From: Spirochaetaceae bacterium | GTDB lineage: Bacteria; Spirochaetota; Spirochaetia; SZUA-6; Bin103 | Reading direction: 5' to 3' | Assembly: GCA_028821475.1 (NCBI GenBank) | Contig: JAPPGB010000072.1 | Location: 1 to 54,313, forward strand | Length of the DNA: 54,313 nucleotides | Shown: positions 431 through 18,514 of the stretch, piece by piece | How the letters are laid out: the number at the start of each line of letters is the position of its first letter | Position numbering within the stretch: the stretch's first letter is position 1 | Notes under the pieces: model-generated | The model's database searches: none | Told to the model about the DNA's origin: nothing | The model's input: only the letters and a program-made list of their open reading frames with translations | Translations under genes and position numbers: made by a program

Positions 431-1609
431 GTGGCGGTCGGCTATCGGAGTGTGATCATCGGCGCCAGCGGCGGGCGGGCGCGGCACCACGCGTTGGCGT
501 ATCGCCACCAGCGACGGGCGAAGCTGGTGGCGGTGTCGGCGCGCACCGTGGACAAGCGGGACAAGCGGGACGAGCTGGCCGATGCCTACGGCGTCGCCGC
601 GCGCTACGACGACTACAGCGAGATGCTGGCCCGCGAGCGGCCCGACGTGGTGCACGTCAATACGCCGCCGGACGCGCGCCTGGAGCTGCTGGAGCAGATC
701 GCGGCCGCCGGCGTGCCGGCGGCGATCATCGAGAAGCCGGTCGCCATCGACGGCCCCGACTGTGCCGCGCTGGCCGCGTTTGCGCGCACCTCGCCGCTGA
801 AGGTGGCGGTCAACCACCAGCTCCACTACCACGCCCCGCGCCGGCGGCTGCAGCGGCTGGTGGCGGACGGCGCCATCGGAACGGTGCGCTTGATCGACGC
901 CAGCACCGGCATGAACGCGGCCTACCAGGGCACGCACGCCCTGCAGTCGGTGTTCGCCTTCGCCGGCGGCGCGCAACCGACGGCGGTGCTCGGGCAGGCG
1001 GCCGGCAGCGACGGCCTGCAGCCGTCGCCGCGCAACCACTTCGCCCCCGACGACCTGCTGGCGGCGATCGACTTCGCAGGTGGGCTACGCGCCGTGCTGC
1101 GCTGCGGCAGCGGCGCGCCCCGGCTGACGGAAGCGCCGCCCGCCGCGCGCGAGGCGGTGTGGGGCCACAAGCGCATCACCGTGTACGGCGAACGCGGCCA
1201 CGTCACCTGGACCATGTGGTCGTGGGAGACACTGTTGGACGGGCGCCTGGAGCGCGGCGCGCACGACTACTGGGAGCACGACGCGCCCGCCGAATCGGCC
1301 CTGGTCGATTCGGTACTGGACTGGATCGAGTCGGCACGGTCACTTCGTGAGCCGAAACACGCACCCGGTGGGCGGGAACACGACGGCAACCGAAGCACCG
1401 GCATCCCGGGCCGGCAGACCCTGGCGGACCAGGGGGCCGAACCGGACCACCCGCTGGGGCTGGCCGAGGCGACCGCGCAGTACGCGGTGCTGCTCGCCGC
1501 CTACCGCAGCGCCACCGAGCGGCGTCCGCTCGCCCTGCCCGCCGGCGACGAGTCACCGGCAATCGACGCGCTGCGGGCGGCTCTCAGTCCGGCGGCGGCG
1601 CCGTCGTGA
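431..1609 (+). CDS. Gfo/Idh/MocA family oxidoreductase with an in-frame insertion
   Basis: A 392-residue NAD(P)-dependent sugar or cyclitol dehydrogenase-like protein. The N-terminal Rossmann fold starts SVIIGASGG (the glycine motif is less regular than usual). The family EKP motif is present (IIEKPVAI), followed by NHQLHYH. I start at GTG 431 because the Rossmann strand begins there and an extended -10 sits just upstream; the frame is open further back, but that part is not domain-like. Near the C terminus about 36 residues rich in G, R, P and T interrupt the expected run from VLDWIES to HPLGLAEATAQYAVLLAAY. This looks like inserted sequence and its 5' edge resembles a dispersed repeat. The stop overlaps the next gene's GTG start, so the two are probably co-translated. 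The substrate is unknown. Confidence 0.82.
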   Translation: MAVGYRSVIIGASGGRARHHALAYRHQRRAKLVAVSARTVDKRDKRDELADAYGVAARYDDYSEMLARERPDVVHVNTPPDARLELLEQIAAAGVPAAIIEKPVAIDGPDCAALAAFARTSPLKVAVNHQLHYHAPRRRLQRLVADGAIGTVRLIDASTGMNAAYQGTHALQSVFAFAGGAQPTAVLGQAAGSDGLQPSPRNHFAPDDLLAAIDFAGGLRAVLRCGSGAPRLTEAPPAAREAVWGHKRITVYGERGHVTWTMWSWETLLDGRLERGAHDYWEHDAPAESALVDSVLDWIESARSLREPKHAPGGREHDGNRSTGIPGRQTLADQGAEPDHPLGLAEATAQYAVLLAAYRSATERRPLALPAGDESPAIDALRAALSPAAAPS

Positions 1610-2640
1610 GCCCGCCGGGCGACGCGCTGATCGACGCCGACGTCCACATCGCCACGCCGGTGGTGGAGACGCTGTATCCCTATCTCGACGCGCGCTGGGT
1701 CGAGCACTTCAGCCAGACCCTCGACAACGGCGCGAGCCAGCACTACTACCCGAAGGGGGCGCCGAACGCCGGTCCCCCGGGTGCGGGCGCCAGCCTGCAG
1801 CGGTTGCGCGCCGACGTGCTCGACGGCACCGGCGCGGAGGCGGCGATCGCCACCTGCCTGTACGCCGTGGACAGCGTGCACCATCCCGACGTGGCGGCGG
1901 CGCTGGCCGGCGCGGTCAACGACTGGCTCACCCGCGAGTGGCTTGAGCCGGAGCCGCGCCTGCGCGGGTCGGTGGTGGTGCCGATCCGGATTCCGGCGCT
2001 GGCGGTGGCCGAGATCGAACGCGTCGCCGACCGGCCCGGTTTCGTCCAGGTGTTGCTCCCGGCGCGCACCGAACACCCCCTCGGCAGCCGGCTGTACCAC
2101 CCGCTGTGGGAGTGCATCGAACGCCACGGGCTGGTGGCCGGCATCCACTTCGGCGGCGCCCCGTCAACGCCGCCCACCCCCACCGGCTGGCCCTCCTACT
2201 TCATCGAGGTGTACGCCGACATGGCCGGGGTGTTCGCCACCCAGCTCACCAGCATGATCGTGGAGGGCGTGTTCGACGCCTTCCCGAAGCTGCGCGTGGC
2301 GTTCCTGGAGTCAGGCTTCACCTGGCTGCCGGCGCACCTGTGGCGCATGGACAAGGAGTGGAAGAACCTGCGCCGGCTGGTGCCGTGGGTCAAGAGGCCG
2401 CCCTCCGAGTACGTGCGCGAACACGTGCGCCTGTCCGTTCAGCCGCTCGACGCGCCGCCCGAGCCCGGCCCGCTGCTCGACGTGGTGGCGCAGCTCGGCG
2501 GCGACCACATGCTGCTGTACGCCAGCGACTACCCGCACCTGCACGCCGCCGACCCGGATCCGGCGCTGCTTGCACATTTGCCGCGCCCATTGCAAGTTAA
2601 GATTCGCAGCGAAAACGCGCGCGGCCTGTACCGGCTCTGA
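1606..2640 (+). CDS. Amidohydrolase (ACMSD-like, PF04909), first copy
   Basis: A 344-residue TIM-barrel metal hydrolase or decarboxylase of the ACMSD/amidohydrolase_2 type. Visible metal-site signatures are DADVH at the N terminus, GIHFGG in the middle and ASDYPH near the C terminus. Start GTG 1606 overlaps the previous stop (GTGA), implying translational coupling with the dehydrogenase. A paralogue follows 30 bases later. Members act on carboxylated aromatic or lactone-like compounds; together with the Rieske ferredoxin and aldehyde dehydrogenase downstream, a small catabolic pathway is plausible, but the substrate cannot be read from sequence. Confidence 0.87.
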   Translation: MSPPGDALIDADVHIATPVVETLYPYLDARWVEHFSQTLDNGASQHYYPKGAPNAGPPGAGASLQRLRADVLDGTGAEAAIATCLYAVDSVHHPDVAAALAGAVNDWLTREWLEPEPRLRGSVVVPIRIPALAVAEIERVADRPGFVQVLLPARTEHPLGSRLYHPLWECIERHGLVAGIHFGGAPSTPPTPTGWPSYFIEVYADMAGVFATQLTSMIVEGVFDAFPKLRVAFLESGFTWLPAHLWRMDKEWKNLRRLVPWVKRPPSEYVREHVRLSVQPLDAPPEPGPLLDVVAQLGGDHMLLYASDYPHLHAADPDPALLAHLPRPLQVKIRSENARGLYRL

Positions 2641-2670
2641 ACCGCCGGCGGAGCCTGCGAGGAGGCGAAC

Positions 2671-3798
2671 ATGAGCCCGACCCTGACGGCACCGGCGCTG
2701 GACGCACGGGAGGCTGCCGCGACCGATCCCGCAATGACCGAGAGTGCCGCCCCGGCCCGCCCGGCGATCATCGATTGCGACCTGCACAACGAGATCGACT
2801 CGCTGAAGGATCTCTACCCCTACCTGTCGCAACGCTGGCGCGACCACCTGGACACGTTCGGCGTGCGTACCCCCAACAGCGGCTCCTATCCTCGCTTCAT
2901 GGACCACCGCGAGGATGCGAGGCCGCCGTCGGGCCGCTCATCGGGCTCCGACGTGGAGTTCACCGGCCGCCACTTCCTTGATCCGTACAATGTCGCCTAC
3001 GCCGTCCTGCAGCCCGCGGTGCTGGCCAACACCGCGCTCGACCTGGAACTCGGCGCCGCCCTGGCGCGCGCCTGCAACGACTGGCAGGCGGCCGAGTGGC
3101 TGGACCGGGACGAGCGCCTGCGCGCGTCGATCCTGATCACACCCGAGGATCCGGTGGCGGCCGCCGCCGAGGTGCGCCGCTGCGCGCGCGACCGGCGCTT
3201 CGTGCAGGTGCTGTTCAAGGGCCGCATGCAGGAGCCGATGGGCCGCCGCAAGTACTGGCCCATCTACGAAGCGTGCGCCGAGGAAGGAGTGCACGTGGCC
3301 AGCCACGCGTTCGGCGCCTACGGCCACCCGATCACCGGCGCCGGCCATGCCTCCTACTACATCGAGGACCACCTCAGCCCCGCCCAGTCGGTGCAGGCGA
3401 ACATCACCAGCCTGGTGATGGAGGGCGTGTTCGACCGCTTCGGCGTCAAGCTGATCTCGATCGAGAACGCGTTCGCGTGGGCGCCGTCGCTGATGTGGCG
3501 CCTCGACGCCGCCTGGAAGCTGCTGCACGCCGAGGTGCCGCACGTGAGGCGCAAGCCGTCCGAGATCGTCGCCGAGCACGTCTACATCACCACCCAGCCG
3601 GTCGAGGAGCCGCCGCACCCGAGCGACTTCCACCGCCTGCTCGACCATTTCGGCGCCATGGCGGACCACCTGCTGATGGCCAGCGACTACCCGCACTGGG
3701 ACAGCGACAACCCCGACGTGGTGCTGCCGCACAGCCTGCCCGAAGACCTGAAGGCGCGCATCCGCTACCACAACGCGGCCGCCCTGTATGGGTTCTAG
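2671..3798 (+). CDS. Amidohydrolase (ACMSD-like, PF04909), second copy
   Basis: 375 residues, a diverged paralogue of the preceding gene. It has DCDLHNE at the N terminus, YPYLSQRW, a central SHAFGAYG where the first copy has IHFGG, and ASDYPHWDSD near the C terminus. A clear Shine-Dalgarno (GGAGG) precedes ATG 2671. The N terminus carries about 30 extra alanine- and proline-rich residues before the barrel. Adjacent paralogues suggest either a heteromeric enzyme or two successive steps on related substrates. It is followed by an intergenic repeat and then the Rieske gene. Confidence 0.87.
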   Translation: MSPTLTAPALDAREAAATDPAMTESAAPARPAIIDCDLHNEIDSLKDLYPYLSQRWRDHLDTFGVRTPNSGSYPRFMDHREDARPPSGRSSGSDVEFTGRHFLDPYNVAYAVLQPAVLANTALDLELGAALARACNDWQAAEWLDRDERLRASILITPEDPVAAAAEVRRCARDRRFVQVLFKGRMQEPMGRRKYWPIYEACAEEGVHVASHAFGAYGHPITGAGHASYYIEDHLSPAQSVQANITSLVMEGVFDRFGVKLISIENAFAWAPSLMWRLDAAWKLLHAEVPHVRRKPSEIVAEHVYITTQPVEEPPHPSDFHRLLDHFGAMADHLLMASDYPHWDSDNPDVVLPHSLPEDLKARIRYHNAAALYGF

Positions 3799-9189: not shown

Positions 9190-10761
9190 ATGCGGATTTG
9201 GATAGGGGTGATCGTGGCGGTCGTGGTGGCCGTGTCGGGGCATGCGGCCGGGGAGACGGAGGCGGCGGCGCCGGAGCAGCTTGTCATCAGTTGGCACGGG
9301 GTCAACCCGACCGGCAACCCGGTGCTGGAGGGGTCGATCATCGAGCAGGCGATCGAGGCCCAGTTCCCGGACGTCGACCTGAAGCCGGTGCCGATCGACT
9401 GGAGCGACCGCGACCAGATCTCGCTGCGCATCGCGGCCGGCGAGGTTCCCGACTTCGCCTACGACATCGGGCGCGGCATGGCCGGCACCAGCCTGCGGCA
9501 GCTCGCCGAAGACGGCGTGATCCGCTCGATATCGCGCGAGTGGCTGGAAACCCACATGCCGATCTACGTGCGCTACGTGGACACCAACGACACCGGCAAG
9601 GCGTGGCCGTCGACCCAGGTGGACGGCGTGCAGTACGCCATTCCGAACGTGTCCGCCGGCAACGCCACCGGGCACATTCTCGGCATCCGCGACGATTGGG
9701 CGGCCGCGGTCGGCTTCGAGCGGCCCGACGCCTGGACCCTGGCCGACTTCGAGAGCCTGATCCGCAGCCTGCGCAACGAGGACCCGGACGGCAACGGCAA
9801 CAAGGACCAGTACGGCTACGCGCGCTGGGCGCAGCAGGGCCTGAGCTCGCTCAGCGTGGCCTCGGCCAGCTTTCCGAACGTGTTCGGCGCGCACGGCGTG
9901 CGCATCGCCACCTGGGACCAGAACGGCGACTGGTCGATGATCAGCGACGGCTACCGCGACGCGCTCAAGGTGCTCGCCGCCTGGTGGGAGGACGACCTGA
10001 TCGATCCGGAGAGCTTCACCGTCGACCGCGCCACCTGGACCGCCAAGTGGGCCAACCACAAGCTCGGCGTGGTGGAGCGCAACTGGACCTGGCTGCGCGA
10101 GCGCGCCGGCTCGCCGATCAACGAGATCCGCAAGACCATGCCGGACGTGTCGATGATCTACCTGCCGCAGCCGGAGGGACCGGCGGGTGCGCAGACCTCC
10201 GCCTACGGCGCCGCCACCGCGGTTGGCCTGTTCGGCAAGGACGCCAGCGACGAGAAGGTGGTCAAGATCATGCAGATCCTGGAGTGGATCGAGACCGACC
10301 CCGACCGCCACTGGCGCAGCCGCGTCGGCCCGATGGGCATCTTCGACCCGGAGGTGAAGTACGCCGAGCGGGTGTCGCCGACCGAGATCCGCCGCATCGG
10401 CGAGTTCCACAACAACGAGGCGTACGCCAAGGCCGGCATGTACAAGTTCGCCATGCACAACTACCGGCCCATTGAGCTGTGGCGCACCAACATCGCCGGC
10501 GAGGTGGCGACCGTGGTGGAGGCGGGCGTGGCCGCCCGGCTGGTCGACGAGGGGCCGTGGGTGGAGTTCTCGGCCGACGTCAACAAGCTGCGCGGCGACC
10601 TGAGCGACATCGAGGTGCAGTTCTACGTCAAGGCGATCTCCGGCGCGATCGACATCGACGCCGAGTGGGACGCCTACGTGGAATCCTGGATGGCCAACGG
10701 CGGCGCGCGCATGACCGAGGCCGCCAAGCAGTTCATCAACGACGGAACCATCATGGAGTGA
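9190..10761 (+). CDS. Extracellular solute-binding protein of a carbohydrate ABC importer
   Basis: 523 residues with an N-terminal Sec signal (MRIWIGVIVAVVVAVSGHA), hydrophobic and ending in a likely A-x-A type cleavage site. No lipobox cysteine is visible, so it would be periplasmic or secreted rather than lipid-anchored. Body features such as IAAGEVPDF, the acidic DPDGNGNKDQYGYA loop and the length fit the LplA/AlgQ group that binds oligosaccharides or sugar acids. ATG 9190 follows AGGAGAGG. It is the first gene of a three-gene importer; no ATP-binding subunit is encoded nearby, so a shared MsiK-like ATPase elsewhere is expected. Confidence 0.9.
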   Translation: MRIWIGVIVAVVVAVSGHAAGETEAAAPEQLVISWHGVNPTGNPVLEGSIIEQAIEAQFPDVDLKPVPIDWSDRDQISLRIAAGEVPDFAYDIGRGMAGTSLRQLAEDGVIRSISREWLETHMPIYVRYVDTNDTGKAWPSTQVDGVQYAIPNVSAGNATGHILGIRDDWAAAVGFERPDAWTLADFESLIRSLRNEDPDGNGNKDQYGYARWAQQGLSSLSVASASFPNVFGAHGVRIATWDQNGDWSMISDGYRDALKVLAAWWEDDLIDPESFTVDRATWTAKWANHKLGVVERNWTWLRERAGSPINEIRKTMPDVSMIYLPQPEGPAGAQTSAYGAATAVGLFGKDASDEKVVKIMQILEWIETDPDRHWRSRVGPMGIFDPEVKYAERVSPTEIRRIGEFHNNEAYAKAGMYKFAMHNYRPIELWRTNIAGEVATVVEAGVAARLVDEGPWVEFSADVNKLRGDLSDIEVQFYVKAISGAIDIDAEWDAYVESWMANGGARMTEAAKQFINDGTIME

Positions 10762-10848
10762 GTCCGCACGGTCACTCCGTGACATGGCAGGCGATGAAAC
10801 CGAGGTGCGGACATCGCCCGCCGGCCGGCTTTTCCGGATCAGGCACCG
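10760..10848 (+). repeat. Dispersed 3'-UTR repeat, family 1, copy A
   Basis: The segment begins inside the stop codon of the binding-protein gene: TGAGTCCGCACGGTCACTCC, then GTGACATGG, GCGATGAAA, ACATCGCCC and GGCTTTTCCGGA. It aligns over about 90 bases with the reverse strand of 17711-17802. The core CACGG-TCACT-CCGTG is a 5-bp hairpin. It could be a processed or regulatory 3'-UTR that lowers permease expression relative to the binding protein. Confidence 0.65.
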
Positions 10849-17710: not shown

Positions 17711-17802
17711 GTGCTTCGCTGGTCCGAAAAAGCGGGCTGGTGGGCGATGCTCGGGCGTCGGTTTTCATCGTCTTCCATGTCACGGAGTGACCGTACAGAC
17801 TC
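17711..17802 (-). repeat. Dispersed 3'-UTR repeat, family 1, copy B
   Basis: On the minus strand this begins at the stop codon of the coiled-coil gene: TGAGTCTGTACGGTCACTCC, then GTGACATGG, ACGATGAAAA, GCATCGCCC and GCTTTTTCGGACC. It is the counterpart of 10760-10848, in the same orientation relative to its upstream gene. The 19-base core ACGGTCACTCCGTGACATG is identical in both copies. Confidence 0.65.
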
Positions 17803-18514
17803 AGAACCGTTCCGGAACTTCCAGGCAGAGGACCCCGGCGGCGGCGGCCCGGTTGCGGTCGGCGGCATCGATCCGGTACCCGGCAACCAGTGCCACCGCC
17901 TCCTCTCCGAACACGGCGGCAAGTGCCTCCGCGCTCTCCCGGCTGCGCTGGATGTCCTCCCCGTCCACCCGGTTGGCCACCTCTATCGCCACCCAGACCG
18001 GCGTTCGCTCGCGGCTCCGTTGCGCGCGCAGGATGACGTCGGTGGCCATGACCCGGTACTCCTGTGGAGCGGTGATCCGGCCCGCCTCGGCGGCCGTGGC
18101 GAGGGGTTCCGCCAACGCATCCTCGGCCTGGTGGACCGCGCTCTGCATGATGCGCGGCCGCCTCACCTGCAGGTGCTGACTGACCAGCGGCTGAATCCGG
18201 CGATGCACCTTCATCTCCAGGTCCGAGCCCTTGAGATAGCCGACGTCGGTCTTCAGCCCCGCTACGTCGGTCTTCAGCTCGGCCACGTCGGTCTTCAGGT
18301 GGACCACGTCGGCCTTCAGTTGGGCCACGTCGATCTTCAGTTCGGCGATGTCCTTTTCGATCCGGTCCAGTCGCGCCGGCATGCCGAGGAACTCGTTGGT
18401 CAGCAGGGCGCGCAACAGAAGCCTCTGCGCCTCCGGGTTGGCCTGCAACTCCGCGATGATGCGCGCTACGAGCGACTTCGGATCGAGATGTTCGGACTTG
18501 TGACTGCTCGTCAT
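17801..18514 (-). CDS. Coiled-coil protein with C-terminal nuclease-like (DUF3782-type) domain
   Basis: 237 residues. Residues about 50-95 are a long coiled coil made of repeated heptads of the type LKTDVAE, encoded by 21-bp tandem DNA repeats (about 18230-18360). The C-terminal 90 residues contain [16 protein letters not shown] and a following VALVAGYRI, resembling the restriction-endonuclease-like fold of DUF3782 proteins, which are common but functionally undefined. ATG 18514 begins [15 protein letters not shown]. The repeat number probably varies between strains because the DNA repeats favour slippage. No partner gene is obvious; the gene ends inside a dispersed repeat. Confidence 0.7.

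Follow-up and report, generated by a model that had tools for sequence, protein, structure and literature searches.

A Gfo/Idh/MocA-family oxidoreductase gene in the DNA stretch analysed here (54,313 nucleotides, referred to as the window) encodes a segment that its relatives lack, which raises the question of the origin of the additional residues. An earlier note on this DNA had placed about 36 extra residues at positions 1329 to 1445 and had likened the insertion to the palindromic elements that enter Rickettsia genes without breaking the frame. Assignment of the gene product to the oxidoreductase family is supported by Pfam (PF01408, E 3e-16), and a codon model detected a coding segment at positions 425 to 1573. 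The features of the gene and the repeat copies found in the window are as follows.

437 to 1609, plus strand: Gfo/Idh/MocA-family oxidoreductase gene, 390 amino acids counted from the VGYRS start used.
1328 to 1330, plus strand: GAG target codon (Glu), host sequence, directly 5' of the element.
1331 to 1432, plus strand: in-frame family 1 element, 102 nt, consisting of the 81-nt element and 21 nt at its centre.
1335 to 1350, plus strand: conserved core CACGGTCACTTCGTGA, one base off CACGGTCACTCCGTGA.
10763 to 10842, plus strand: second window copy, 80 nt, intergenic (10759 to 10842 with its target).
17719 to 17799, minus strand: third window copy, 81 nt, intergenic (17719 to 17803 with its target).

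The insertion is in frame, as had been proposed, and its extent was revised to 34 residues (positions 1331 to 1432). The insert runs from TCG at 1331 through CAG at 1432 and encodes SARSLREPKHAPGGREHDGNRSTGIPGRQTLADQ, residues 299 to 332 of the protein; these edges agree with the GAG target and the CAG end of a dispersed repeat, family 1. The left edge had been reported to differ by one base from the family 1 core, and this was found to be correct (CACGGTCACTTCGTGA versus CACGGTCACTCCGTGA at 1335 to 1350). The 21 central nucleotides of the insert are without counterpart in the family 1 consensus. In the predicted structure of the protein (mean pLDDT 78.7, 15 sequences), the insert occupies a loop (pLDDT below 50 at residues 305 to 333) flanked by helices at residues 282 to 304 and 342 to 361. 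The prediction suggests that the insert is probably a tolerated, disordered loop of the enzyme.

The family 1 core occurs three times in the window at two mismatches or fewer, versus 0.05 matches expected. The window's own genome, a draft assembly of 5.73 Mb in 183 contigs designated G000, contains 38 core matches at one mismatch or fewer, and the reversed control gave none. Alignment of these 38 places in register revealed a much longer conserved element, which enabled comparison of the insert with genome-wide copies, a check that the earlier note had proposed. With nhmmer, a model built from 34 copies, the window copy being held out, matched positions 1328 to 1428 over model positions 3 to 82 of 83 with 24.5 bits. 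Among 21 decoys as long as the window (20 made by shuffling three-base blocks, one by reversal), the top score was 12.2 bits. A second model, R1, built from 24 copies and again without the window copy, matched positions 1328 to 1432 over model positions 3 to 86 of 87 (38.7 bits, E 5.6e-9 in the 5.7 Mb genome). Since the held-out models match over nearly their full length, the whole insert, and not its edge alone, is a family 1 copy: the entire insert, beyond the core, is a full-length diverged member of the family. Chance likeness to the repeat was thus rejected at the sequence level.

Family 1 was searched for in 26 genomes of the order, including a close set of four (G000 to G003). One of these, G002, is also a draft assembly, with the taxonomy Spirochaetaceae bacterium bin103; the available text of PMC5649159 describes bin103 as a bin from the microbiome of the sponge Aplysina aerophoba. 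At E ≤0.1, R1 matched at least 120 places in G000, 38 in G002, 3 in G003, and none in G001. In the 22 genomes of the order beyond the close set, three single weak matches (E 0.005 to 0.01) were obtained at E ≤0.01. Collection with nhmmer yielded 112 distinct copies (92 in G000, 19 in G002, and 1 in G003), 59 of which were considered intact as they scored at least 45 bits and reached both model ends. The length was exactly 81 nt, or 27 codons, in 45 of the 59 intact copies; the consensus of these 45 is TCTGTACGGTCACTCCGTGACATGGAAGACGATGAAAACCGATGCCCAAGCATCGCCCGCCGGCCGGCTTTTTCGGACCAG, usually preceded by TGAG. GAG is located directly 5' of the element in 46 of the 59 intact copies (window background 1.5%), the three positions being G in 56, A in 52, and G in 55 of them.

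No target duplication was detected, since flank-to-flank k-mer matches (k 2 to 6, 59 copies) were at the shuffled level. The dinucleotide AG at the right-hand end was retained in 8 of the 10 copies with a non-AG left flank, so that AG was taken as the terminus of the element and rejected as a target duplication. L085, one of the two exceptions, has CG on both sides, which would fit a duplication. At the second and third window copies, the first three bases of TGAG are at the same time the TGA stop of the upstream gene, which thus stayed intact upon insertion. Including these two, 11 copies have a TGA stop codon within the target. The peptide read from the element after a GAG codon is SVRSLRDMEDDENRCPSIARRPAFSDQ, which is recognisable in the window insert; this plus frame is open in 41 of the 45 copies of 81 nt. 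Four of the six frames are open, and this was rejected as a design feature because, at this base composition, 448 of 1000 shuffles have at least four.

Neither 72,556 plasmid nor 50,697 phage records matched a 92-base stretch with one copy, so that carriage of family 1 by plasmids or phages received no support. Rfam searches of five loci with copies, at the gathering threshold, gave no hit at the element itself. About 140 nt downstream of one copy, at L132:1723-1946, they detected a cobalamin riboswitch (RF00174, 69.2 bits). Four copies (L096:1489, L107:62, L111:1511, and L115:1492), three of them at contig ends, have the common left flank CGATTCACGTGAGCC. The common flank and the contig-end positions suggest that a longer multi-copy repeat carries the element at these places. 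Adjoining pairs of copies, in the same or opposite orientation, were observed at L159:2487-2662, L152:1560-1758, L110:1427-1577, and L165:1490-1647; the G002 site corresponding to the L159 pair matches neither copy.

Empty sites were sought in part of G002 (tiles and loci), which gave 13 pairings. Comparison with G002 revealed a clean net gain of 81 nt at the intergenic loci L106, L098, and L154. At L106, the empty site reads TTGAG|TGAGAC and the filled site ATGAG[..CGGACCAG]TGATAC; L098 and L154 show the same pattern. Gains of 81 nt were also found within genes, at L088 by comparison with a paralogue in the same genome (contig C106) and with contig C75 of G002, and at L162 by direct alignments with the G002 orthologue; BLAST edges gave a net difference of 78 nt both for L162 and for L088 versus G003. 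The (T)GAG motif was already present at the empty sites of other copies, and the insertion site of L162 is G-rich rather than (T)GAG. The G002 counterpart of the window copy at 10763 also has TGAG, with other changes alongside. Five pairings with further changes were left uncounted, with net differences of 155 (L102), 108 (L091), 140 (L159), 80 (L026), and 113 nt (the window copy at 10759). Model scores differed between copies shared with G002 and copies whose site is empty there (6 versus 8, p 0.012), a soft comparison since the copies were hand-picked, two shared rows correspond to the same G002 locus, and the low-scoring L026 is empty in G002. Insertions were found in both orientations, in and between genes. 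Family 1 is a small non-autonomous mobile element, insertion-polymorphic between close relatives and with precise boundaries.

According to the codon model, 5 of the 92 G000 copies and 2 of the 19 G002 copies span a stop-free coding segment, and 87 and 17, respectively, are intergenic. This model was trained on the open reading frames of the window and of the loci, with four window frames as seeds, one supported by Pfam and three recognised by eye. Two other codon models were discarded, one of which selected an antisense frame for the window gene. Because a stop-free frame was a condition for assignment to the gene-spanning class, the absence of stops in these copies carries no independent weight. 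In addition to the window gene, the following hosts were identified.

L088, contig C102: DUF6851 protein with FG-GAP repeats.
L148: UvrD-type helicase protein.
L162: beta-lactamase-family protein.
L121, in G002: alpha-L-rhamnosidase, with the copy where the N-terminal Ig domain ends.
L085: protein without Pfam match.
L143: protein without Pfam match; partial copy, model positions 2 to 50.

These host proteins are unrelated to one another. Among the seven genic copies, comparison with homologues shows true insertions at L162 and L088; for the window gene, the insert is absent from relatives other than G002, all of which are distant. The L162 protein reads RMRVA[WSEEVGGRAMPGHRPSSSSVSPSDRTH]PE versus RMRVAPED in G002, and the 27 residues are lacking in all seven aligned homologues. 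The L088 protein reads PEE[SVRSLRDLEDDESRHPSITRRPAFSGK]G versus PEED in the C106 paralogue of the same genome; the insert is also absent from contig C75 of G002 and contig C2 of G003. On contig C65 of G002, the corresponding site harbors a stretch of similar length and unrelated sequence, indicating that the L088 site is variable in its own right. For L121, homologues match from just 3' of the insert onward. No clean empty site was found for L148, whose relatives align to the regions flanking the linker and not to the linker itself. The window gene, L088, L121, and L185 share the plus frame, following GAG or another GAR-like target codon. The resulting peptides are SVRSLRDLEDDESRHPSITRRPAFSGK for L088, SVRSLRDIEDDDDRGPSIAPRPVFTDQ for L121, SARSLRE...DGNRSTGIPGRQTLADQ for the window gene, and PVRSLRELKDGAGGRTGSAGRLARSDR near the C-terminus of L185, a protein without Pfam match that was left out of the seven genic copies as the element overlaps the gene end.

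The only close orthologue of the window gene that was found is located in G002 (MPNH01000013.1, Spirochaetaceae bacterium bin103), is 92% identical, and has the insert at the same position. The insert columns are gaps in 21 of 21 other aligned relatives, including the in-genome paralogue on contig C168 (for example, LDWLEDGSAL-PGT versus LDWIE[...]GAEPDHPL); these relatives display at most about 37% identity, and pairwise alignments cross the insert site for just two of them, the paralogue on C168 and its counterpart in G002, the others being placed by multiple alignment. The alignment was built from 21 loci, two of which contributed zero (L082) and two rows (L239). The alignment of orthologues that the earlier note had called for thus showed the insert to be lacking outside the G002 orthologue; within the genus, no empty orthologous site of the window gene was found, G002 also having the insert. 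The G002 insert is 12 nt longer than that of G000, with a central growth of 33 nt versus 21 nt, and its likeness to the repeat is weak: R1 matched over model positions 3 to 84 (19.9 bits, E 0.003), and the 34-copy model gave two partial matches (10.9 and 3.7 bits). An orthologue having the residues and lacking the repeat would have spoken against a repeat origin. Since the G002 orthologue has the residues together with a weak full-length repeat match, the original reading stands, and G002 alone is no proof of it.

Together, these results make it very probable that an old family 1 copy, translated in frame, gave rise to residues 299 to 332. As seen from the empty sites of other copies, the 81-nt element inserts directly 3' of (T)GAG and leaves the target unduplicated. 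Since its length is a multiple of three and the plus frame after GAG is open, a copy landing at a glutamate codon lengthens the protein by 27 residues without a frameshift. Such a gain of 27 residues was observed at L088 and may be extended to the window copy. The latter would have entered a GAG codon, now in the loop between two C-terminal helices, before the split between G000 and G002, and would later have been altered in steps of three nucleotides, the centre having grown by 21 nt and, in G002, by 33 nt.

One explanation of how the element moves, which is quite conceivable and to which we nonetheless give slightly less weight than to its opposite, is mobilisation in trans by a known enzyme that does not duplicate its target, either of the HUH type (IS200/IS605, RAYT-like) or a core-dinucleotide recombinase (IS110, IS607-like). 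The frequency of GAG directly before the element, the shuffled level of flank matches, and the retained right-hand AG are in favor of this possibility. An AG common to both sides is the footprint expected of a recombinase acting on a shared core. Miniature IS200/IS605 derivatives of the PATE type insert 3' of a short fixed target and do not duplicate it, as does family 1; unlike for these derivatives, no Y1 transposase was found in G000 to G003 and no covariation supported a hairpin. The Y1 transposase domain (PF01797) was found in none of these four genomes, whose assemblies are incomplete, and in 5 of 14 control genomes, so that a Y1 enzyme was not retained as the mover. IS110-type genes were detected (one in G000 and three in G002). 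In the stretches around these four genes, with limited flanks, family 1 matches did not exceed 3.9 bits, none of the genes was bracketed by the two ends of the element, and end-like sequences matched just loosely, with two to three mismatches. IS110 was rejected as the mover on the lack of matching ends within these limited flanks. The CG on both sides of L085, which resembles a duplication, also argues against enzymes of either type.

The best match between candidate terminal inverted repeats was 8 of 16 positions, a value reached by 677 of 2000 shuffles. Fold z-scores were −0.17 and 0.45 for the two strands of the consensus and 0.41 and −0.97 for the window insert; the G002 insert folded somewhat better than shuffles (z −1.68; 11 of 200 shuffles). 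No compensatory pair was found among 10 predicted pairs of short local dyads in 24 copies. Fold z-scores, covariation, and Rfam thus provided no support for a structured RNA or a REP-like hairpin.

Small repeats located in frame within genes are best known from Rickettsia. The comparison of family 1 with the Rickettsia palindromic elements (RPE; Ogata et al., 2000, 2002), based on the available text of PMC10969869 and PMC3733652, indicates that both are small dispersed repeats with some copies in frame inside unrelated protein genes, and that both encode a recurring peptide whose presence in the product is apparently tolerated. The analogy drawn in the earlier note was therefore retained for entry into genes without frame breakage, as seen from the held-out matches, the two genic empty sites, and four more genic copies, and was abandoned for the palindrome, in view of the consensus fold z-score of −0.17 and the lack of covarying pairs. 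Family 1 behaves like RPE in being tolerated by genes. Unlike RPE, which are about 150 bp long in the available text of these sources, family 1 is 81 nt long, has no clear palindrome, has a defined GAG target, belongs to hosts related to another phylum, the Spirochaetota, and is mostly intergenic (5 of 92 G000 copies spanning a coding segment). Repeats of the REP type, including GTAG- and CGTC-tagged repeats with intragenic copies, are similarly described in the available text of PMC3733652 as numerous and mainly intergenic, with some copies in open reading frames and ends that may overlap stop codons. According to the same text, REPs are palindromes of 20 to 40 bp, many of them linked to tyrosine transposases, unlike family 1, which is 81 nt long and weakly structured, in four genomes without a detected Y1 transposase. 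MITEs and ERIC-type units with intragenic copies, as presented in the available text of PMC2759123 and PMC10969869, are also small non-autonomous mobile sequences able to fuse with host genes. Unlike MITEs, family 1 has neither above-chance terminal inverted repeats nor target duplication. Since it displays no palindrome, no such inverted repeats, and no duplication, family 1 is best described as a small repeat inserted in frame in genes, rather than as an RPE or a MITE.

In the titles and abstracts of the open-access collection searched, no paper reporting family 1 was found, and the available text of PMC11656744, on another sponge spirochaete, does not mention such repeats. It is doubtful, and proposed here tentatively, that family 1 represents a mobile-element class of its own, new and adapted to residence in genes, combining entry at (T)GAG, a length of 81 nt, an open frame, and an unrecognised mover, and providing sponge-associated Spirochaetaceae with a recurrent source of 27-residue segments. 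The data include before-and-after insertion pairs in a spirochaete relative, one of them involving a same-genome paralogue, and define target, length, and frame precisely enough for testing. Young copies with empty sites and one old copy in two species form a series on the uptake of a new segment by proteins.

Recruitment of the genic copies for a useful peptide, such as an interaction or localisation segment, appears improbable. Between G000 and G002, 3 of 54 nonsynonymous and 5 of 21 synonymous sites differ in 25 element-derived codons (Fisher p 0.035; dN/dS 0.20), codons that were picked after the alignment had been seen and exclude the centre, and different genes contain the same plus-frame peptide. 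However, the insert as a whole has a dN of 0.155 and a dN/dS of 0.44, versus 0.037 and 0.13 upstream and 0.042 and 0.27 downstream, indicating that constraint is weak; none of 320 windows of 34 codons in the rest of the gene reached its dN. In addition, the insert is predicted to be disordered, the hosts are unrelated proteins, and the same data are accounted for by selection for nothing more than an intact frame and fold. An ordinary variable loop of the enzyme resembling the repeat core by chance is very unlikely, since its low-confidence structure, rapidly evolving centre (dN of the insert 0.155 versus 0.037 upstream), and weak repeat match in G002 are outweighed by the genome-wide significance of the held-out full-length match with R1, a score with the 34-copy model of twice that of the best decoy, bounds agreeing with the GAG target and CAG end of the family, and the lack of any residues there in the 21 relatives other than G002.

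Two minor observations concern the core and the surroundings of the window gene. At C58:77300-77414 of G002 (L030, minus strand), the core is CGCGGTCACTCCGCGA, with two changes relative to the family 1 core, both at third positions, silent in the gene, and preserving the pairing of the short dyad. In the window, the oxidoreductase gene is followed, at positions 1606 to 3798, by two adjacent and mutually related genes (direct repeat families D2 and D7), which appear amidohydrolase-like by eye.
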